Shown here piece after piece: positions 93 to 51,026 of a stretch of DNA of 64,000 nucleotides. The stretch is taken from positions 1 through 64,000 of the forward strand of contig NZ_JAAOHY010000009.1 of the NCBI RefSeq assembly GCF_011308835.1. Direction: 5' to 3'. Within the stretch, counting starts at the first letter, position 1. Each line of letters opens with the position of its first letter. The notes beneath the pieces are model-generated. The model was not told the DNA's origin. It saw nothing but the letters and a program-made list of their open reading frames with translations, and searched no databases. Made by a program: the position numbers and the translations under genes. The DNA comes from Paracoccus xiamenensis. Lineage in GTDB: Bacteria > Pseudomonadota > Alphaproteobacteria > Rhodobacterales > Rhodobacteraceae.

Positions 93-267
93 AGCGTCAC
101 CAACTTTCGCCCATATCTCATGGGTATGGCGGGATTTGTAGTGGTCGCTAGAACACTCGAACCTCAGGCCCCCACACGCCCTGCGGATTGAAGCCGCCCA
201 ATCTGCGCACATCCCGCGAACGAGTTCGCGCGGCCGTTCCGGCTTCACAGCTTTCGTCGAACATAAT

Positions 268-512
268 GCCTGACAGCATTTGCCGATCGAGTGTCAGCTC
301 CGCCACGATCCGCTTCAATCGTGCGTTCTCATCGTCAAGCGCATTCAGTCGACGCATTTCATCCGACAGCAGGCCGCATACTTCTGCTGCCAGACAAAGT
401 GGGTCGATTGTCCAATCCCGGCCTACCGGCAGATCTCGGCAACCGGCGCGCCTTCTTCGCCCTGCTTCAAAGTGAGCGCCTTTTGCGCCTCAATGAGCTT
501 GGATGCCTTCAT
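268..512 (-). pseudogene. Decayed IS3-family orfA (HTH transposase subunit) with stop codon and frameshift
   Basis: Reading the minus strand from an ATG at 512 gives MKASKLIEAQKALTLKQGEE and then PVAEICR, the classic N-terminal HTH of IS3/IS407-type OrfA. The next codon is TAG. The reading continues AGIGQSTHFVWQQKY, then needs a frame change to reach MRRLNALDDENARLKRIVAE followed by LTLDRQML, the OrfA leucine-zipper end. Homology stops near 268, and no OrfB (DDE catalytic) part follows. The copy is inactive: one nonsense codon, at least one frameshift and no orfB. It marks the left border of the low-G+C island at 610-5838. Confidence 0.8.
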
Positions 513-609
513 CCTTCTCAGCGTCCTTCCCAGCCCGGGAAAATCTAGCCGAAAACTCCGGCTTCAGATAATCGAGTTTTCAGCGAGCAGGGCATTGCAG
601 GCCACACTC

Positions 610-2523
610 TCAATCGTTCGTCCACTCGATGATACGCGTTATTCTTTCAGGTGTGATCCGCGTGAATGAATTGTGGGTTGACCATGGCTCCACGATACCG
701 TGACGGCCATTGGTGTGGACGCCAACGATCACGTCGGGTTCCTCAACCGAGGTGACGGCAGACCCGGATGTCCCTCCGAAGGTGTCATTCTGATAGAAGC
801 CCTTCAGCTCCCAAAGATATGCAAGCTTATCTTCGCTGACCCATTGTCGACCGGCAGGCGCACGATCTGCCGCGTAGCCCTGTACACGGGTAGGTATGGA
901 AACCTGATCATCGGCAAGAACGCGGACACCCAGCCAGCCGGTCTTCTCGCCGATGTTACAATCCAGCTTCAACGCGCCGAGATCATAGTATCGCGCTTCC
1001 GCCTGGCTTAGCGCATCTGTCCAGCCGCTCAGAACATAGCCGCGCTTTGCGCCGCATCTTCCATATGGCGCCCTTGCAGTGTTGCGGGCGGGAATGATGC
1101 GGTAATCCACGAAGTAACTGCCGATGACGGTTCCAGAATGAATGCAATGCGCAGCAGTGAGGACGGTGTCAGGCGAAATCATCGTACCCGTGCAAAGAAG
1201 GTCTTTCCCGCCTTTGCGCTGTTTCATCGATATCTGCACAATGGCGCGCGATGGGTAGTTCGTGGGGTCCAGCACGACTTCCCGGTTATCTTCGCCAATG
1301 ACCGAAAAGGGGACGAAGAACTCGCGCTCCACGTCTTTTCCGCCCATTTCGTAGTCGGAATACTGCCCGACCGCCGCCGAAAAGATCGCGCCTTCCTTGG
1401 GCAGAAGCCGCTTGTCGGCCAATTGCTCATTTGTCCCGGTGAAAGGCGCGATTTCTAGAACCGTTGGTTCCGGAGAATCCAAAAACTCGATTACGGCTGT
1501 CTGTTCTCCGTCCCGCTCCTGCACTTGGCCCGCAAGCTCATCCCCTACCGGAAGATGACGCCACTCCATCGGGTCGAGCAGTGCCTGCTCTGTCGCGTCA
1601 TCAAGCTCTCCAGTTTCAGGCAGGCCGCGCTCACGCTGATAGGCCTTCAGCGCGTCGGCGCGGGTTTCTTGCGAAACACTTTCCGTCCCTGCGCTATCCG
1701 GCGTCAGGAACCCGCCACGGACAAGAATGCGGTCGAACAGCAACACATCTTCCGTCAACGTAGATTCGGCCAGTTCGACAGCGCTTTCGAAACCAAGTCC
1801 TTCCTTATGCTGAAAAACCCGGAGCCACGCTTTGTTGAACCATATAACCGATTGTTCAAAACCATGAGCTGCGCGGCCATTGATCAGCACGCGCACCCTC
1901 AGCCTGTCGTGGTCATCCGCAGCCGCATTGATGCTATGTGACGTCCAATATGCGATCGCGGCCTCCAGTCCTCCGGGAACGCGGCGCGCCAGCTCCGGTT
2001 GGTTTTCAAGTGGCAAGCTGATTTCGCGGCCACGCTCGCGAAAGTTCGCCCGCCCTGTCAGTTGGATATAGCCCGAACCGCGATATTCCCATCCGTCGTT
2101 TGTGTGCTGGCCACGGTTTCCGAGCATGTTGCCATAAACCCAATTTGCCACCTCTTGCGGCTTTCCAGCGATTTCACGCGCTTTTGCCTCGGATACACGT
2201 GCGCGGGAGAAGACGCGCATGAGAGCATCGAATGAATAATTCATGTTTTCATCAAGTCGCGTCAGCCCGTCGGTTTCCGTCAGCACCTGTGCCAGGAAAT
2301 GGGCCATGCGCAGCCTTGTGTTTATTCCCGCTTCTTCAAGAAGGTCTTCGCCTTCGATGAGCGCTTGAACGAACTCATCCTTGGCATTGGGGGAAATGAC
2401 CTTGACGTCCTCGAAAGTGATCAGCTTTTCCTGAGCGTTTGCCATCGGCGCAATGACGATAAGCGCGAGAAGGCACGAAACAAGCCGGCCGAAAAGCCCT
2501 TTGACTACCGCGGCGATGCTCAT
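610..2523 (-). CDS. Exported three-domain protein: GH19 chitinase/lysozyme-like + peptidoglycan-binding + trypsin-like serine protease
   Basis: 637 residues. A Sec signal peptide covers about residues 1-30 (hydrophobic LLALIVIAPMANA, cleavage near Ala30). Residues about 45-250 match the GH19 lytic fold of phage-type endolysins: AHFLAQVLTET with Glu83 at the catalytic position, ENMNYS, and YRGSGYIQLTGRANF. Residues about 285-317 look like a PG_binding_1 repeat (ALKAYQRERGLPETG). Residues about 380-637 form a V8/trypsin-like protease with TAAHC (His459), YYDLGAL (Asp514) and GGTSGSAV (Ser586), so the triad is complete. A GGAG lies seven bases before the ATG. It is the last gene of the exported-protein island. 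Acting on murein or chitin outside the cytoplasm is inferred from domains only. I do not know this domain order as a described family. Confidence 0.85.
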   Translation of the reverse strand: MSIAAVVKGLFGRLVSCLLALIVIAPMANAQEKLITFEDVKVISPNAKDEFVQALIEGEDLLEEAGINTRLRMAHFLAQVLTETDGLTRLDENMNYSFDALMRVFSRARVSEAKAREIAGKPQEVANWVYGNMLGNRGQHTNDGWEYRGSGYIQLTGRANFRERGREISLPLENQPELARRVPGGLEAAIAYWTSHSINAAADDHDRLRVRVLINGRAAHGFEQSVIWFNKAWLRVFQHKEGLGFESAVELAESTLTEDVLLFDRILVRGGFLTPDSAGTESVSQETRADALKAYQRERGLPETGELDDATEQALLDPMEWRHLPVGDELAGQVQERDGEQTAVIEFLDSPEPTVLEIAPFTGTNEQLADKRLLPKEGAIFSAAVGQYSDYEMGGKDVEREFFVPFSVIGEDNREVVLDPTNYPSRAIVQISMKQRKGGKDLLCTGTMISPDTVLTAAHCIHSGTVIGSYFVDYRIIPARNTARAPYGRCGAKRGYVLSGWTDALSQAEARYYDLGALKLDCNIGEKTGWLGVRVLADDQVSIPTRVQGYAADRAPAGRQWVSEDKLAYLWELKGFYQNDTFGGTSGSAVTSVEEPDVIVGVHTNGRHGIVEPWSTHNSFTRITPERITRIIEWTND

Positions 2524-2576
2524 CTGACGACTCCTTACTCTCAGTTTGTCTCGTTGGCTTCATGCGCCCGCAACAA

Positions 2577-3389
2577 TCATTCGGGTATCGACTGGATTCG
2601 AAACAGAGCGTCGATCAGGTTATCGTTCTGCCGGCTTGGAATGTGCTTCGCGACAAGCTCTTTCGCGCGACCATCACGAAATAAACCCGCAAGCGCCTTA
2701 TCGACCTCGCGGCGCAGTGAATGGTTGTCCTTATGAAATGCGATCGCATAGGGCTCATAGGTCAGACCGCGCACGCTGATAACGTGGCTCTCGACAAGGT
2801 CCGGGTGATCCGTGAGCATCGCGTTCAGGATGTCGCGATCCGCGATATATCCGTCGATCCCGCCGGAAAGCAGCGCCTCTACTGCGCTTTCATGGCTCTT
2901 GAATGGGGCGGTTTCTACCTTCATCTGCTGGTCGCTCAGAATTCCCCCGGCGGCAATGCTCTTATGGGCGGTGGTTTCGATCAGATAGCCGACGTTCAGC
3001 GGTGGTGCGTCTAAAGGTATTCCGCTCATCAAGCGTCGCGGAAAAAGAAGCGCGGTATCTGTGACAAAGGTAATCAGTGAGAATTCGTATTTGTCGCGCC
3101 TGTCCATGTTGACGGTTGTCGCCTCGCACAACATCGCGCATTTCCGGTTATCTAGCGCGCCGAAACGTGTCTCTACTGTCACGGGAACGATCTCTGGCTC
3201 GCTGATGCCCATTATGTCAGAGATCATCTTGCACAGATCGACGCTGTAGCCGGTGAACTCGCCGCCCTCGATTTGCGAAGAGAACGGCGAGGCGTCTTCA
3301 CGAAAGCAGATCGAAAGGTTTTCGGCCGCCAAAGCTCCCGGAAGAACCAGACCCAGAATGACAGTCGCAGTTCTCAGCATGACGGACAT
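2577..3389 (-). CDS. Periplasmic amino-acid-type solute-binding protein (SBP_bac_3 family)
   Basis: 270 residues from the ATG at 3389, chosen because it opens with a good signal peptide (MSVMLRTATVILGLVLPGAL, then AAE). A longer in-frame start at 3506 would put 39 poorly coding residues before the signal. The mature part shows the family 3 pattern: FREDASPFSS, GGEFTGYSVDLCKMI, a Cys-rich VDRR-type stretch (NRKCAMLCEATTVNMDRRD), and a C-terminal lobe ending in AKELVAKHIPS. Known members bind polar amino acids for ABC import or act as ligand sensors. No permease or ATPase gene is nearby, so a stand-alone sensing or scavenging role within the protease island is more likely. The first codons overlap the end of the Cys-rich ORF 3374-3595. 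Confidence 0.8.
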   Translation of the reverse strand: MSVMLRTATVILGLVLPGALAAENLSICFREDASPFSSQIEGGEFTGYSVDLCKMISDIMGISEPEIVPVTVETRFGALDNRKCAMLCEATTVNMDRRDKYEFSLITFVTDTALLFPRRLMSGIPLDAPPLNVGYLIETTAHKSIAAGGILSDQQMKVETAPFKSHESAVEALLSGGIDGYIADRDILNAMLTDHPDLVESHVISVRGLTYEPYAIAFHKDNHSLRREVDKALAGLFRDGRAKELVAKHIPSRQNDNLIDALFRIQSIPE

Positions 3390-3595
3390 CCGGGGATGGC
3401 TCTGCAATTGATCGCCCAGTTGCAGCAAGATCCGCAGCAGCACCATCTTTGTTCGGGTATTCCGGGCTGAGTTGGCGCAAACTGGGCGATACGGTCTGGT
3501 TGGCACGGCTGCTTATCTGCGAGCTCTGGAACAGAGGTGGCAACGGTGAACGCGGATAAGGTGGTGTAGATGAAGAGTTCAGCGACTAGGGTCAT
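3374..3595 (-). CDS. Small exported or membrane-anchored cysteine-rich peptide (73 residues), translationally coupled
   Basis: The ATG at 3595 overlaps the stop of the upstream protease gene in an ATGA, the usual sign of translational coupling. The end overlaps the start of the solute-binding protein gene by 16 bases. Residues 1-20 are hydrophobic (AELFIYTTLSAFTVATS) and could be a signal peptide or anchor. The C-terminal third carries eight cysteines, including WCCCGSCCNW, NCR and CPSC. I recognise no family. Overlap at both ends and a leader-like N-terminus favour a real gene, but with this length and no homology evidence a chance frame is possible. If expressed, disulfide-bonded or metal-binding chemistry outside the cytoplasm is plausible. 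Confidence 0.5.
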   Translation of the reverse strand: MTLVAELFIYTTLSAFTVATSVPELADKQPCQPDRIAQFAPTQPGIPEQRWCCCGSCCNWAINCRAIPGCPSC

Positions 3596-5838
3596 GACAA
3601 GCAGGTTCCTGTACTGTTAGGCTGATCGGTCAGCAGGCGCACGTCGGTAAAGAACAGAATTGCCAGAATAAGATGGGCAAAGTGCTTTGCCGTGACCTGT
3701 GGCTCAACGCCCAGTCGTGATGTGCTGTATCGGGTGATATTCACGTCTTCCAGCAGGTAATTTTCCAAAGTCGAACGCCATGCGTAGTATTCCGGGTAAT
3801 CACAAATCCGCTCTATGAAACCGTAGTTGAGATGGCTTCGCCCTTCGAAGGATCGGTTCTCGAAAAATTCAAGATATGTATTTTCTATGGCGGTTGCATC
3901 AAGCGAGATCGGCTGTTCGAAAACAGGGTAGAGATGAATCCGTATTTCGCGTGGGCGCACCGGTGTCCCGTTCTCACAATTTATCCGTAGCTCGACGTTT
4001 TGAAACAGCGGGGCATTCGCCAGCGCGTTACTGTTCGAGAATCCACGTGCCGGCCGGTATATTCTGAAATGATAGGTCGATTCACGATCGTCGGCCCAGT
4101 GAAGCCGCTGGGTTTCATTGATGAGACCACCGACACCTATAGTTGCGTCGACTGCCGAGGGCAGGCCAAGAGGCTCATACAGAGCTTGGTCGCCGCAGTC
4201 TATTTTCGCCACGATAGGCTGACTTGGCCGTTCAAGAATGCTTATGGCGCGCACAAGATTTTCGTTTATGTCCGGCTCGATCGTTGCCCACCAGAGCTGT
4301 GAAAACAGCTCTTTCGCCAGGTCGTAGGTAACAACTTTCATGGGGCGTGGTGTCACAAAGTCAACTTCAGCGTCTGGCGGAGGTGTCGTGCAAAAGCTGT
4401 AGTCGACCGGCACCTCGTATTCGGAATTGTTATGCTTCATCCTTGTGTCAAAACGCCGAAACGGCTTATACAGCTGTGCCTGCATCGGGATACATGCAGG
4501 ATCGTCTGCCAGTGACTTCGGGGCGCGCTCAACAAAGGTGGTGGGCAAAAAATTTGTCTGCTCGGAAAATCTGTCGACGATTTTGCGGTTCTCTACGAAG
4601 GTGAGATATTCAGCATAGGCTGCCTCCAGCGCTTCCACATCTGACGTTCTCAGATAGGACGCCCATGGGGTCAGGAATGGCCAATCGGCGACATTGTTGT
4701 TGTAGGGCGGAAGGTTCTCACCCGGATTGCAGTCGGCCGGGTCTTCTGGCCCGCAGAGCTTCAAGGCAAAGGTACCCTCCGGAAAAATATATCCAACGTC
4801 TTCAGTAACCGGTGCGACCGCCTCTGTATCAATCAGGACAAGCAGCCCATATTCGGCCTGAAAGATCGTCCAGGTTTTTTGTTCGCCGGAAACGTCCGCG
4901 ATCTCAATGTCGCGCATCGGTCGAAGCAAAAGGCCCATCGGGAAATAGTGGCTTTTGCGAAGAGTCCCTTCGCTGCAATCAATCCAACGCGCAGGACCGG
5001 TGGTGATCGTTACCCAATACTCGGCAGTGCGCGCCAGCTCATTTCTTGGCTCTGTCGCTGCTGTGCTGGACAATCCCGGCACCTTGTCGGGATATTTCGA
5101 CAGTACCGCCTCACGCAGAAGTTGGCTGCAAACGCCTTTTCCCTGAAGTTGCTCAGACAGAAGTGACAGTTCATGTTGGCGGGCATCCACCTCGGGATTG
5201 CCGCGATACTCGATAACTTTGTCGTAGAACTCATCCGCCGCAAGAACCGCCCATCGCGCAGGAAGACCCAAGCCATCGCTCTCCCCCCTTGAGACTATTC
5301 CGACCAGCACACCATCGGACACGACCGGGCCGCCACTCATCCCGACTGTCGTTAAGGCGCTGGCGCTCACTAGGCCCAAACCATCAATCTCGATGCTCTC
5401 AATTGTCCCGTACCGTCGCTCAAGCAGGTTCTGTTGTGCGGGAAACCCTGCAGCGACTACATTTTTCTGAAGGTAGTCGCTGATGGACTTCGCGACCGCC
5501 ATATTCTGAAAATTATCGTTTTCGCTATCGGAGAACTTCAGAATGGCAAAATCGCGGTAGTCAGAGAGATAGCGCAAGTTGAGATCTCGCTGCGGGGGTT
5601 CGTCGGCACGGCCTATAAGGCCTTTGCAAGTGCTGCCCTCCAGCACGACATGCTTGGCTGTCAGAACGTAGCCTTCATCCGAAAAGATTACGCCGCTTCC
5701 CTTGCTTGTGGTGTTCGATTCGTCAACGCATTCTATATACACAACTACGCTGTCGCTAATCCCCTGCGCGGTTAATTCAACCGCAGGAAATAATACCAAA
5801 AAAGCCGTCAGGGCAGCACTTGAAAAGTAGCACCACAT
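3592..5838 (-). CDS. Exported DegP/S1C-like serine protease with large C-terminal region of unknown function
   Basis: 748 residues with a signal peptide (about residues 1-25, AALTAFLVLFPAVELTAQG). Residues about 28-210 are a trypsin-like domain: GSGVIFSDEGYVLTAKHVV (His63), YRDFAIL (Asp96) and TTVGMSGGPVVSDG (Ser168), so the triad is intact. Residues about 215-725 match nothing I recognise. This part is rich in aromatic residues with scattered cysteines and no PDZ signature, and it ends in a hydrophobic stretch (AHLILAILFF, about 712-724) that could anchor the protein. A CAGGA lies just before the ATG. It is the first gene of the four-gene exported island, and its stop is coupled to the Cys-rich peptide. 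G+C is low: bases 4561-4620 hold 28 G or C of 60 by hand count. Confidence 0.8.
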   Translation of the reverse strand: MWCYFSSAALTAFLVLFPAVELTAQGISDSVVVYIECVDESNTTSKGSGVIFSDEGYVLTAKHVVLEGSTCKGLIGRADEPPQRDLNLRYLSDYRDFAILKFSDSENDNFQNMAVAKSISDYLQKNVVAAGFPAQQNLLERRYGTIESIEIDGLGLVSASALTTVGMSGGPVVSDGVLVGIVSRGESDGLGLPARWAVLAADEFYDKVIEYRGNPEVDARQHELSLLSEQLQGKGVCSQLLREAVLSKYPDKVPGLSSTAATEPRNELARTAEYWVTITTGPARWIDCSEGTLRKSHYFPMGLLLRPMRDIEIADVSGEQKTWTIFQAEYGLLVLIDTEAVAPVTEDVGYIFPEGTFALKLCGPEDPADCNPGENLPPYNNNVADWPFLTPWASYLRTSDVEALEAAYAEYLTFVENRKIVDRFSEQTNFLPTTFVERAPKSLADDPACIPMQAQLYKPFRRFDTRMKHNNSEYEVPVDYSFCTTPPPDAEVDFVTPRPMKVVTYDLAKELFSQLWWATIEPDINENLVRAISILERPSQPIVAKIDCGDQALYEPLGLPSAVDATIGVGGLINETQRLHWADDRESTYHFRIYRPARGFSNSNALANAPLFQNVELRINCENGTPVRPREIRIHLYPVFEQPISLDATAIENTYLEFFENRSFEGRSHLNYGFIERICDYPEYYAWRSTLENYLLEDVNITRYSTSRLGVEPQVTAKHFAHLILAILFFTDVRLLTDQPNSTGTCLS

Positions 5839-40980: not shown

Positions 40981-42024
40981 TCAGCCCGCAAAGTCCAGCT
41001 GCACCTTGACCGCCTGCGTCCGGTCCCCGGCCAGATCAAAGGCGCGCTGCGCCTCGCTCGCGGGGATGACCTGCGTGACCATGGGCGACAGGTCGATTTC
41101 GCCTGCGCCGATCATGCGCACGGCCTCGGCGAATTCGCTGTCGAAGCGGTGGGTGCCATGAAAGCGGATTTCCTTGCTGACGATCAGGTTCAGGGGCAGG
41201 GGCAGCGTGCCGCCCACGCCGATCTGGACCAGCGTGCCCTGCGGGCGGGTGATGGCGATGGCCTGAGCGATGGCATGGGCATTGGCCGAACATTCCAGCA
41301 CCACGTCGATCCGGCCTTTGCCGGCCGCGTATTCGGCCAGCCCGTCCGGGTCGCTGGCCACGTTGACGGTGCGGTCTGCGCCCATCTGCCGCGCGATCCC
41401 AAGTGTATAGTCCTGCACATCCGTCACAATGATCTCTGCCGCGCCGTGCAGCCGCGCCAGCGCCGTGCAGATCGCGCCGATGGGGCCGGCCCCGGTGATC
41501 AGCACCCGCTGATCCTTCAAGGGTGGCGCCATGGTCAGCGCGTGCAGGCAGACGGCCAGCGGCTCTGCCCCGGCGGCTGCGGCGGCGCTGATGCCATCGG
41601 GCAGGGGCAGGCATTGCCCGGCGGGATGGGCGATGCGGCCTCGGAAGAAACCCTGTTCATGCGGCATCCGCATGGCCGATCCGTTGAAGCGCATGTTCAG
41701 GCAGTGGCGTGGCTGACCGGCGGCGCAGAATTCGCATTCCCCGCAAGGACGCGAGGGCGACAGCGCCACCAACTGCCCGACCGTCAGACCAGAGCCTTCC
41801 GGCGCGGCCTCGACAAAGCCGGCGGCTTCGTGGCCGAGGATAATCGGTTGCTGCACCCGGATCGGGCCGAAGCCGCCATCGTGATAATAATGCAGGTCCG
41901 ATCCGCAGATCCCGCCGCGCGCAACGCGGATGACGGCGCTGTCCGCACTGCTCAGCGCCTCGGGCGCGGGTTCGACCCGCAGGTCGTGGGCGGCGTAAAG
42001 ACGGCAGGCGATGTCTTGGGTCAT
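40981..42024 (-). CDS. L-idonate 5-dehydrogenase-like zinc alcohol dehydrogenase
   Basis: 347 residues. Catalytic zinc region: GGICGSDLHYYHDGGFGPIR and GHEAAGFVEA. Structural zinc: four cysteines in RPCGECEFCAAGQPRHC. NAD loop: VLITGAGPIGAICTALARLH. The HYYHDGGFG signature is typical of L-idonate 5-dehydrogenases, which interconvert idonate and 5-ketogluconate. It sits between dctM and the FMN oxidase gene, four bases from the latter. It points to the operon feeding aldonates such as idonate or gulonate besides hexuronates. Confidence 0.85.
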   Translation of the reverse strand: MTQDIACRLYAAHDLRVEPAPEALSSADSAVIRVARGGICGSDLHYYHDGGFGPIRVQQPIILGHEAAGFVEAAPEGSGLTVGQLVALSPSRPCGECEFCAAGQPRHCLNMRFNGSAMRMPHEQGFFRGRIAHPAGQCLPLPDGISAAAAAGAEPLAVCLHALTMAPPLKDQRVLITGAGPIGAICTALARLHGAAEIIVTDVQDYTLGIARQMGADRTVNVASDPDGLAEYAAGKGRIDVVLECSANAHAIAQAIAITRPQGTLVQIGVGGTLPLPLNLIVSKEIRFHGTHRFDSEFAEAVRMIGAGEIDLSPMVTQVIPASEAQRAFDLAGDRTQAVKVQLDFAG

Positions 42025-42025
42025 C

Positions 42026-43303
42026 TCAGTTGTCCATCAGCGAAGGAAGCCAGGTGCTGATCCACGGGATATAGGACACCAGCAGAAGCACGACGATATT
42101 GGTTATCAGGTAAGGCACCAGCGCGCGGATCACCGGGCCAAGCGGCAGCCGGGCGATATTGGCGCAGATGAACATGCAGACCCCGACCGGCGGCGTGGTC
42201 AGCCCGATCATCAGGTTCAGCACCGCGAAGACGGCGAAATGCAGCGGCTCGATCCCCACACCCTGCGCGAGTGTCATCAGCGGCACGAACAGGATGATCA
42301 GCGCGGCGATGGTTTCCATGAACATCCCCACGATCAGCAGGACGATGTTGATCAGCAGGATGACCAGAAACTTGTTGTCAGTGACCGACAGGACGGAATC
42401 AGCGATCATCTGCGGGATCCGCTCGCTGACGAGGATCCAGCCGAAGACGTTGGCGGTGCCGACAAGGGCCAGAATGCCCGCAGAAGACACCGCGCTGTCG
42501 ACGAGGATGGCAGGCACCCGCGCCAGCGGCAGCTCGCGATAGATGAAGGCACCCACGAGGATGGCATAGATCGACGCCACGACAGCGGTTTCGGTCGGGG
42601 TGACAACACCCGACAGCATGCCGCCCACGATCAGGACGGTCATCGCCAGCGCCCAGAAGGCGCCCAGGAAGGCAGATCCCAGCTCGGACCAGCCCTGCCA
42701 AGGTTGGCGCGGAAAGTCGCGCCGGACCGAGATGATGTAAGTGGTGACCATCATCGCCACGCCCAGAAGCAGGCCGGGCAGGGCGCCCGCGATGAACATC
42801 TTACCGACCGAGATCCCAGCCAGCGAACCGACGATGATCATCGGAACCGAGGGCGGAATGATCGGCCCGACGGTCGAAGACGCGGCGGTCACGGCGGCCG
42901 AAAAATCGGCCGGATAGCCCGCCTTCTTCATGCCGGGGATCATCATCCCCCCGATCGAGGCCGCATCAGCGACCGCCGTCCCGGAAATGCCGCCGAACAG
43001 CATGGACGAGGCGACGTTGGTCTGTGCCAGCCCGCCCCGGATCCAGCCGACAAGCGCCTGCGCAAAGCGGATGATGCGCCCGGTGATGCCGCCGCCATTC
43101 ATCAGGTTCCCGGCCAGGATGAAGCCGGGGATACACAGCAGCACAAAGCTGTCCATGCCCGCATACATCTTCTGCGGAATGACGACCAAGGGGATCCCCT
43201 GATACAGCAGATAGGCCACAGATGACACGCCCAGCGTGATTGCCACCGGCATGCCGATGATCAGGCCAAAGGCAAAGACCAGTCCAAGGATTGCGAGGCT
43301 CAT
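42026..43303 (-). CDS. dctM: TRAP transporter large permease (DctM)
   Basis: 425 residues from the ATG at 43303, which overlaps the dctQ stop. About 12 membrane segments with the DctM pattern: LAILGLVFAFGLIIGMPVAI, FILAGNLMNGGGITGRIIRF, SMLFGGISGTAVADAASIGG and SSTVGPIIPPSVPMIIVG. It is the sodium/solute symport channel of the TRAP system with DctQ and DctP. The operon suggests hexuronate or related sugar acid as cargo. Confidence 0.92.
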   Translation of the reverse strand: MSLAILGLVFAFGLIIGMPVAITLGVSSVAYLLYQGIPLVVIPQKMYAGMDSFVLLCIPGFILAGNLMNGGGITGRIIRFAQALVGWIRGGLAQTNVASSMLFGGISGTAVADAASIGGMMIPGMKKAGYPADFSAAVTAASSTVGPIIPPSVPMIIVGSLAGISVGKMFIAGALPGLLLGVAMMVTTYIISVRRDFPRQPWQGWSELGSAFLGAFWALAMTVLIVGGMLSGVVTPTETAVVASIYAILVGAFIYRELPLARVPAILVDSAVSSAGILALVGTANVFGWILVSERIPQMIADSVLSVTDNKFLVILLINIVLLIVGMFMETIAALIILFVPLMTLAQGVGIEPLHFAVFAVLNLMIGLTTPPVGVCMFICANIARLPLGPVIRALVPYLITNIVVLLLVSYIPWISTWLPSLMDN

Positions 43304-49956: not shown

Positions 49957-50114
49957 GCTTGCGGCGCAGGGCCGGTTATCAGCGGTCATCGCCGCGGGTG
50001 CTTGACCCGGCAAGTCGGCGGGCATAGGCACGGGGGCAGGGCATATGCCCGGATCACCCCCTTCCAGACAGGCCGAAGATGAACGCGCCCGTTTAAAGCC
50101 CGCTTCGCGGCATC

Positions 50115-51026
50115 ATGCTGAAATGTCTCAGCGTAACGGTCTTCACCATCATGGCGGCGATCGTAAAGGCGACCTCGGACGGGGGCACGGGTGTGCCCGC
50201 GGGCCAGCAGGTCTTCTTCCGGTCCTTCTTCGCAATTCCGGTGATCCTTTTGTGGCTGGTCTGGCGGGGCGAGCTGTCGGTCGGCCTGCGCACTTTTCGC
50301 CCGATGGGGCATTTTTATCGCGGCATCATCGGCACCGCTGCGATGGGGCTGGGATTCTGGGGGCTGTCGCTGCTGCCTTTCCCCGAAGTGGTCGCCATCG
50401 GCTATGCCGCGCCGCTGCTGGTGGTGATCTTCGCGGCGATGTTTCTGGGCGAAAACGTGCGGCTGTTCCGGCTGTCCATGGTGGTGCTGGGGCTGCTGGG
50501 CGTGCTGATCGTGCTGTCGCCGCAGCTGGGGCTGGGCGGATCAGGCACCCCCGATTATCAGCGCACACTGGGCGCGGTGGTCACGCTGGGCGGGGCCTGC
50601 TGCGCGGCGCTGGCGCAGATCTTCGTGCGCAAGCTGGTCCAGCAGGAACGCACCTCGGCCATCGTCTTCTGGTTTTCCGTCACTTCGACCGTGCTGGGGC
50701 TGCTGACGCTGCCCTTCGGCTGGGTGATGCCGGATGCGGGGACGCTGGCGCTGCTGATTACCATCGGGATCCTGGGCGGGATCGGGCAGATCTTCCTGAC
50801 CTCGGCCTATCGGTTTGGCGAGGCCTCGCTGGTGGCGCCCTTCGAATATGTCTCGATGGTGCTGTCGGTGGCGATCGGCTGGTACCTGTTCGGCGAGGCG
50901 GCGACGACGACCATGCTGTTCGGTGCCTCGCTGGTGATCCTCGCCGGGATCCTGATCATCTGGCGAGAGCGTCAGCTGGGGCTGGAACGCAGCCGGCAGC
51001 GCAAGGCAATGACGCCGCAGGGCTAG
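50115..51026 (+). CDS. EamA/DMT-family membrane exporter, probably re-started after an upstream stop
   Basis: 303 residues with ten hydrophobic segments in the two-repeat EamA pattern: VFFRSFFAIPVILLWLVWRG, GLGFWGLSLLPFPEVVAIGY and AAPLLVVIFAAMFLGENV, and in repeat two SLVAPFEYVSMVLSVAIGWY. The ATG at 50115 lacks a clear ribosome site. Thirty-six bases upstream, in frame, ATG at 50079 opens M-N-A-P-V and then meets TAA (50094-50096), followed by SPLRGI before the present start. The ancestral N-terminus therefore seems to have been cut by a nonsense change. DMT proteins export amino acids or metabolites. Substrate unknown. Confidence 0.8.
   Translation: MLKCLSVTVFTIMAAIVKATSDGGTGVPAGQQVFFRSFFAIPVILLWLVWRGELSVGLRTFRPMGHFYRGIIGTAAMGLGFWGLSLLPFPEVVAIGYAAPLLVVIFAAMFLGENVRLFRLSMVVLGLLGVLIVLSPQLGLGGSGTPDYQRTLGAVVTLGGACCAALAQIFVRKLVQQERTSAIVFWFSVTSTVLGLLTLPFGWVMPDAGTLALLITIGILGGIGQIFLTSAYRFGEASLVAPFEYVSMVLSVAIGWYLFGEAATTTMLFGASLVILAGILIIWRERQLGLERSRQRKAMTPQG

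Follow-up and report, generated by a model that had tools for sequence, protein, structure and literature searches.

Four genes for predicted exported proteins at a contig end

What is the role of a serine protease gene, a cysteine-rich peptide gene, a solute-binding protein gene and a gene fusing a murein hydrolase-like domain to a second protease, packed together at the edge of a contig? This question is raised by a four-gene island of Paracoccus xiamenensis (genome size 3.64 Mb). It lies within the initial 64 kb of contig C21, the whole 64,000-nt stretch that was analyzed (hereafter the window). The island consists of four open reading frames (ORFs) on the minus strand, from position 5838 down to 610. 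We propose tentatively, as a reading that is quite possible, that these genes form a mobile cassette for an exported two-protease cascade that would mature the Cys-rich peptide, perhaps for antagonism. The evidence that the island is a conserved unit is strong, and its function is what we infer. The features are as follows:

3592..5838, minus strand: gene 1, predicted exported protein with a Trypsin_2 serine protease domain followed by T530, our own label for the C-terminal part of about 530 residues (Pfam Trypsin_2, 2.6e-15; eight other T530 loci)
3374..3595, minus strand: gene 2, predicted exported Cys-rich precursor peptide of 73 residues (five orthologues; fixed-length core)
2577..3380, minus strand: gene 3, orphan family-3 solute-binding protein, SBP (Pfam SBP_bac_3, 8.4e-21)
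610..2523, minus strand: gene 4, predicted exported fusion of GH19-type, peptidoglycan-binding and glutamyl-endopeptidase domains (PHROG endolysin, 3e-53; 1p3c, 9.5e-18)
130..594, unstranded: IS3-family (insertion sequence) transposase remnant, just past the 3′ end of gene 4 (blastn to plasmid records)

An earlier reading of the sequence alone had described four coupled ORFs on one strand, and their coordinates are borne out: genes 1 and 2 overlap by ATGA, the stop of the peptide gene overlaps the start of the SBP gene by ATGCTGA, and about 53 nt separate gene 3 from gene 4. That reading also gave every product an export signal or a leader-like N-terminus; inspected by eye, all four carry a signal-like N-terminal stretch and are presumably exported. 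The G+C-content of the island is indeed low (0.548 relative to 0.641 for positions 6001-64000), and the lowest value for any other 5,229-nt stretch of the window is 0.599 (50-nt steps). The insertion scar proposed for the left edge corresponds to the IS3-family remnant at about 130-594: its best-covering places in plasmids are 72-76% identical, some of them annotated as IS3 family transposase (blastn). The reading had also noted the absence of transporter, holin, phage and secretion-system genes; when the window translations were inspected by eye, no transporter, holin or tail gene was seen beside the four genes. Position 1 of the window is the contig end, and the side downstream of gene 4 is therefore not visible.

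Conservation of the gene set in Rhodobacterales

We scanned genomes with the protease domain of gene 4 and considered the best 80 of 195 relatives. Seventeen loci were compared: the 15 closest relatives (all Rhodobacterales), the window and the MC1862 plasmid. Outside these 17, two loci (L074 and L078) were covered by a partial view of the neighborhood and a peptide pattern scan, and 63 more distant ones by the peptide pattern scan only. The 17 loci were sorted into four types:

Type A (trypsin-T530, peptide, SBP and gene 4): the window, P. aestuariivivens (L073), Litoreibacter arenae (L060) and an uncultured Sulfitobacter (L072)
Type B: five Rhodovulum loci (L061-L064, L075)
Type C: five Paracoccus loci (L068-L071 and MC1862, Paracoccus sp.)
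Type D: two Frigidibacter loci and strain DSL-40 (L065-L067)

All four genes of the island are thus found together in 4 genomes of three genera. Their flanks differ: no gene was common to the flanks of the type A loci at E 1e-5 (26 kb compared in the window and 16-21 kb in each of the other three). The G+C-content of the type A module is 0.544-0.562 relative to 0.575-0.641 for the flanks in the four hosts, and in ten type B-D loci the module lies within 0.05 of its flanks, either higher or lower. The gene content of type A, its differing flanks and its G+C-content fit transfer as a unit, in agreement with the sequence-only reading, which had taken the island for a transferred module. Constancy of gene order across genomes had been named as the check. 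The genes are not scattered, but they occur in two arrangements that are circular permutations of each other. In the window and L060, gene 4 comes last, after trypsin-T530, peptide and SBP; in L072 and L073 it comes first, ahead of these three in the same order.

Profile comparisons (E 0.02-0.8) gave no support for placing T530 in one family with the large partner proteins found in types B and C. The type B partners and the type C partners are related (E 7e-14), as are the T530 domains of type A and of the lone loci described below as type E (E 5e-19). By eye, the first proteins of type C and one type D protein resemble trypsin folds minus the catalytic residues, i.e., pseudoproteases (L006:4864-6444, L068:5289-7043 and L046:3837-5051). 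All five Rhodovulum loci (L061, L063, L064, L075 and L047) carry, ahead of gene 4, a gene for a conserved protein of about 270 residues (D270), and an astacin/matrixin-type metalloprotease gene is located upstream of the P. aestuariivivens cassette (L007:2593-3516, plus strand).

Gene 4 encodes a candidate glutamyl endopeptidase

The sequence-only reading had listed a GH19 enzyme and a second protease; both are present, but fused in the single product of gene 4. Its N-terminal domain matches PWe1 endolysin (3e-26) in addition to the PHROG endolysin, although the Pfam GH19 score (14 bits) is below the cut-off of 25.5. The GH19 catalytic Glu, located by eye, lies in TETDG in the window versus TETGG in most relatives. 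The protein further contains a peptidoglycan-binding domain (PG_binding_1, 8.2e-6) and a protease domain encoded from about 1302 to 613, in which Val408 of the motif VIG aligns to chain residue 2 of BIGEP (1p3c). In V8/BIGEP-type enzymes, the new N-terminus forms the S1 site only after removal of the propeptide (PMC5508998).

We observed a zymogen-type site, [PQE][FY][STG] before VIG.D, in all 17 gene-4 proteins (16 by pattern and L072 by eye). The residue before the presumed cut is aromatic and not Glu, which suggests that another protease may make this cut. The His and Ser motifs of the protease are present in 17/17 proteins and the Asp pattern in 14 (not matched in L061, L066 and L072). The HTN motif also occurs in all 17; for the window, the pattern match fell on an earlier HTN, and the alignment shows the true one. 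The domain can be classified with these motifs as a glutamyl endopeptidase of the V8/BIGEP type, which is a predicted activity. In contrast, four of the 17 proteins lack the GH19 core or the entire GH19 domain (the core in P. aestuariivivens and the whole domain in three Rhodovulum proteins). Since the His and Ser motifs are kept in every protein, an attack on murein, one of the roles suggested by the sequence-only reading, is probably not what the module essentially does.

Generic relatives of this protease are widespread: its profile finds 321 of 394 genomes of the family at E 0.001, and only four (the window included) at E 1e-100 or better. The search of viral data returned only weak relatives, five in viral contigs and five in phage records, with less than 60% identity.

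A short cysteine core beside a large partner

The product of gene 1 (748 residues) had been read as a DegP-like protease, of a different fold from the second protease. Neither claim held: the degP_htrA_DO model gives 19.6 bits against a cut-off of 416.2, Pfam finds no PDZ domain, and both protease domains match Trypsin / Trypsin_2. The Trypsin_2 domain covers residues ~47-190, and the catalytic His, Asp and Ser motifs are present by eye in gene 1 of all four window-type loci. T530 extends from about residue 205 to the end (positions 5226-3595). It has no Pfam match, and a profile of eight members has no PDB match at E up to 10. Relatives were found in eight other loci, and seven Cys are invariant across eight T530 proteins. 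The domain is rare, occurring in 4/394 genomes of the family, 4/390 of the order and 2/289 of the class; the window genome is included in each of these overlapping samples, and G662 in the order sample has the same sequence as L060. Both positive genomes of the class sample belong to the same family. No T530 relative was found in viral contigs.

Directly after T530 comes the Cys-rich peptide gene, in 9/9 loci, five of which lack the protease domain. The peptide ends in W followed by exactly 22 residues, 8 of them Cys (encoded at 3445-3377), and the same layout is found in the five window-type peptide loci (the window, L060, L072, L073 and L165). Across these loci, the mean pairwise identity is 68% for the tail (51% without the Cys positions) and 23% for the leader, with values of 46% for the SBP and 35% for T530. 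Processed precursors have this layout, in which a variable leader precedes a conserved tail of fixed length. Gene 2 has no match in Pfam, PHROGs or NCBIfam. A Cys-rich peptide gene is present in 14 of the 17 gene-4 loci (type A 4/4, B 5/5, C 5/5 and D 0/3), with the form CC-x-CC-x-GCxC in types B and C; a looser search of the type D loci yielded only ORFs lacking the Cys pattern. In viral contigs, the DNA pattern of the peptide core was found as a full motif in 0/120 among the matches listed (at least 120 stretches). No enzyme modifying ribosomally synthesized and post-translationally modified peptides (RiPPs) was recognized by eye in the gene lists beside the window-type loci; T530 itself could in principle be such an enzyme.

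The SBP accompanies the window-type peptide core in 5/5 loci. Its five orthologues share four invariant Cys (25, 50, 81 and 85) and a common C-terminal motif. Among solved structures, the SBP is closest to amino-acid binding proteins and to reconstructed ancestors of these, and an entry named MltF appears lower in the list (6hqh, 6.7e-6). The similarity to a cystine-binding protein is weak (45 bits, cut-off 312). The earlier description of a binding protein without permease was confirmed by eye from the gene lists: neither a permease nor an ATPase adjoins the SBP in the window, L060, L072, L073 or L165, and we rejected its assignment to an ABC importer. The SBP does not adjoin gene 4 in 13 of the 17 loci.

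Five loci harbor T530 without the protease domain (G309, G226, G325, a Salipiger plasmid and G695), and the peptide gene lies directly downstream in 5/5. We define type E as the four of these that also lack an SBP (G309, G226, G325 and Salipiger); their peptides present the CC-x-CC-x-GCxC form, the Salipiger one lying outside the incomplete gene table of its record. The fifth, G695 (L165), presents T530, peptide and SBP with a window-type core and no gene 4, its only matches to gene 4 being weak ones of generic trypsin type; it is the fifth genome with this trio. The lone T530 proteins had no NCBIfam match (L049) and no Pfam match (L165). These results support the view that what recurs is an exported, Cys-dense peptide accompanied by a large partner, and that serine proteases are attached to this element in most forms. 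A divergently oriented gene beside the G695 trio (L165:8794-12141, plus strand) encodes a possible partner, a protein of 1,115 residues that is hydrophobic at both ends and reaches the cut-off of no family. Convergent to the lone pair of G325 is a small ORF (L051:5910-6536, plus strand), which by eye we take to encode a retropepsin-like aspartyl protease.

Second protease gene and contractile-tail neighbors

In every locus but the window (16 of 17), the gene directly after gene 4 encodes a trypsin-like protease. These 16 comprise 14/14 loci tested together, MC1862 and L069 (partial, cut by a contig end). In L072 and L073 this gene is the trypsin-T530 gene itself, and in L060, which has the order of the window, it is a fifth gene. 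The fifth protein of L060, searched in the window genome, finds gene 1 only. Because the IS3 remnant sits at this very place, the island of the window is probably truncated, its fifth gene having been lost at the remnant, next to which the contig ends.

Sheath, tube, baseplate or PASTA genes were found within about 10 kb of gene 4 in 7/17 loci, a count in which the contigs of L067, L069 and the left side of the window are too short to judge. The seven are MC1862, both Frigidibacter loci and four of the five Rhodovulum loci, with two distinct sheath types. The sheath family PF04984 matched 13/20 genomes of the wider set (9/20 over the family cut-off) versus 26/101 genomes of the genus (21/101 over). 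The tail link belongs to types B-D and not to type A. The Frigidibacter module is flanked by an amidase-trypsin-nuclease fusion of 868 residues (L048:5713-8319) and by a trypsin protein (L048:4586-5695), whose N-terminal domain resembles an effector-associated domain.

Proposed mechanism and alternatives

We propose that T530, the Cys-dense peptide precursor and the orphan SBP would make up the core of the cassette, to which a two-protease cascade would be joined. The product of gene 4 would be kept at the cell wall by its endolysin-type and murein-binding domains, with its glutamyl endopeptidase still inactive. Activation would come from a cut before the conserved VIG by another protease, either that of gene 1 or, in relatives, that of the gene after gene 4. 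The proteases would trim the leader of the peptide and free a core of about 22 residues with 8 Cys, for which T530 may serve as carrier, scaffold or target. The SBP may sense or capture a ligand, whether an amino acid, a muropeptide or the peptide itself. Because contractile-tail clusters adjoin related protease modules, the cassette would likely act outside the cell, for instance by inhibiting competitors. It is possible, somewhat more tentatively, that these genes represent an undescribed class of secreted peptides: a signal-leader-core precursor with a fixed core of 22 residues and 8 Cys, a dedicated murein-held serine-protease cascade that would mature it outside the cytoplasm, T530 and a receptor-like SBP in a cassette spread in Rhodobacteraceae, with cousins at contractile-tail loci.

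Several observations weigh against this proposal. No tail cluster was found near any of the four type A gene-4 loci, and the window, Litoreibacter and Sulfitobacter genomes have no PF04984 match; the single match in P. aestuariivivens lies on a contig other than that of the cassette. The link to antagonism would therefore be borrowed, for the type of the window, from cousin modules. The stretches of the five lone T530 loci contain no ORF matching the reference proteases beyond T530 itself, and maturation there would need another enzyme. We searched for a Glu before the Cys core, since a Glu-specific protease might need one there, and found it within five residues in 9/17 peptides (window-type 3/5, Rhodovulum type B 5/5, Paracoccus type C 0/4 and type E 1/3; L290 and L069 were left out, L069 being a near-repeat of MC1862). 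Shuffled linkers place such a Glu with a chance of 0.16-0.73 in the 13 peptides with a Glu in the linker. AlphaFold gave a weak model of the peptide (predicted local distance difference test, pLDDT, 61.4) and no usable model of T530 (four sequences; pLDDT 38.6). The G+C gap is small in L072 and L073 (0.03 and 0.02). Finally, type A is not one clade in the gene-4 tree (last 290 residues, 17 rows), L072 and L073 being split deeply from the window and L060. This suggests that part of the set may have been exchanged, and that the four genes may have been assembled or re-shuffled more than once.

Other explanations were considered. The peptide might be a disulfide-stabilized inhibitor or regulator of the neighboring trypsin-like proteases, protecting the producer, and not their product. 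The pairing of a small Cys-rich exported protein with exported serine proteases in 14/17 gene-4 loci speaks for this, but type D (3/3) possesses proteases and no such peptide, and the stretches examined around five T530-peptide pairs contain no trypsin-like gene; we consider this unlikely. A periplasmic thiol/metal module, in which the peptide binds metal or buffers redox and T530 and the SBP handle the peptide or cystine, would account for 8 Cys in 22 residues, for the invariant Cys of T530 and the SBP (7 over 8 and 4 over 5 proteins) and for the weak cystine-binding similarity. However, Cys conserved in exported proteins usually form structural disulfides, inspection of the conserved set by eye showed no metal transporter, regulator or oxidoreductase, and two proteases and a murein hydrolase would be left unexplained, which makes this explanation rather improbable.

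Equally doubtful is a sensor of cell-wall turnover or envelope stress, with a separate MltF-like SBP that senses muropeptides and controls the GH19/protease fusion. The MltF match of the SBP and the endolysin and murein-binding domains of gene 4 are consistent with it. Against this, amino-acid SBPs score better than the MltF entry, the GH19 part is missing in four of the 17 relatives, and the SBP stands away from gene 4 in most loci and without it in G695. Low G+C-content and an IS remnant would also be expected of accessory genes gathered by chance on a transferred island, but the recurrence of the same set, with overlapping or close frames and unrelated flanks, in three other genomes already contradicts this, and we regard it as very improbable. 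The protease cascade acting on a Cys-rich peptide is the reading that we retain. If it is true, the cassette would add a new peptide family and a large domain family that are absent from the protein libraries searched. In a compact set of four to five genes, it would also represent a bacterial extracytoplasmic zymogen cascade whose logic resembles that of animal protease cascades.

Comparison with known systems

The sequence-only reading knew no named system of this composition, and we found none in Pfam, NCBIfam, PHROGs, PADLOC, the PDB or the literature searched (listings and abstract openings). Except for T530 and the peptide, each protein taken singly can be placed in a known fold family. 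Gene 4 shares with the V8/BIGEP glutamyl endopeptidases the protease domain, the VIG N-terminal motif, the catalytic His and Ser and the HTN His; it differs in that its pro-region consists of an endolysin-type GH19 and a murein-binding domain and in that a second protease gene follows in relatives. The N-terminal domain is similar to phage and prophage GH19-type endolysins, but here it is fused to a protease, with a signal-like N-terminus and no holin seen. Viral origin was rejected, given the search results for T530 and for the gene-4 protease.

In the GRR system, the orphan SBP GrrP is encoded beside a small peptide gene, an arrangement shared by the island. However, the island peptide is Cys-dense, proteases are present, no radical SAM maturase was seen by eye, and TIGR04262 matches weakly (21.5 bits, cut-off 190); membership was rejected. 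MltF combines an SBP domain with a lytic transglycosylase of family GH23. The island likewise brings a family-3 SBP together with a murein hydrolase, but as separate proteins, with GH19 in place of GH23 and with a protease and a peptide in addition. PADLOC matched gene 1 with four models over residues ~27-187, i.e., the trypsin domain only, and gave no match for genes 2-4; an anti-phage system was thus rejected.

The link to extracellular contractile injection system (eCIS) loci is the location of the cousin protease modules near sheath, tube or baseplate genes. According to PMC8213781, eCIS-associated toxins include predicted peptidases and, marked with a question mark, chitinases. The window-type loci differ in having no such genes nearby, and membership in a contractile injection system was rejected, the window genome having no sheath match. 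Elsewhere in the window, we observed strong local AT skew at 42001-43000 (0.29) and 50001-51000 (-0.27).

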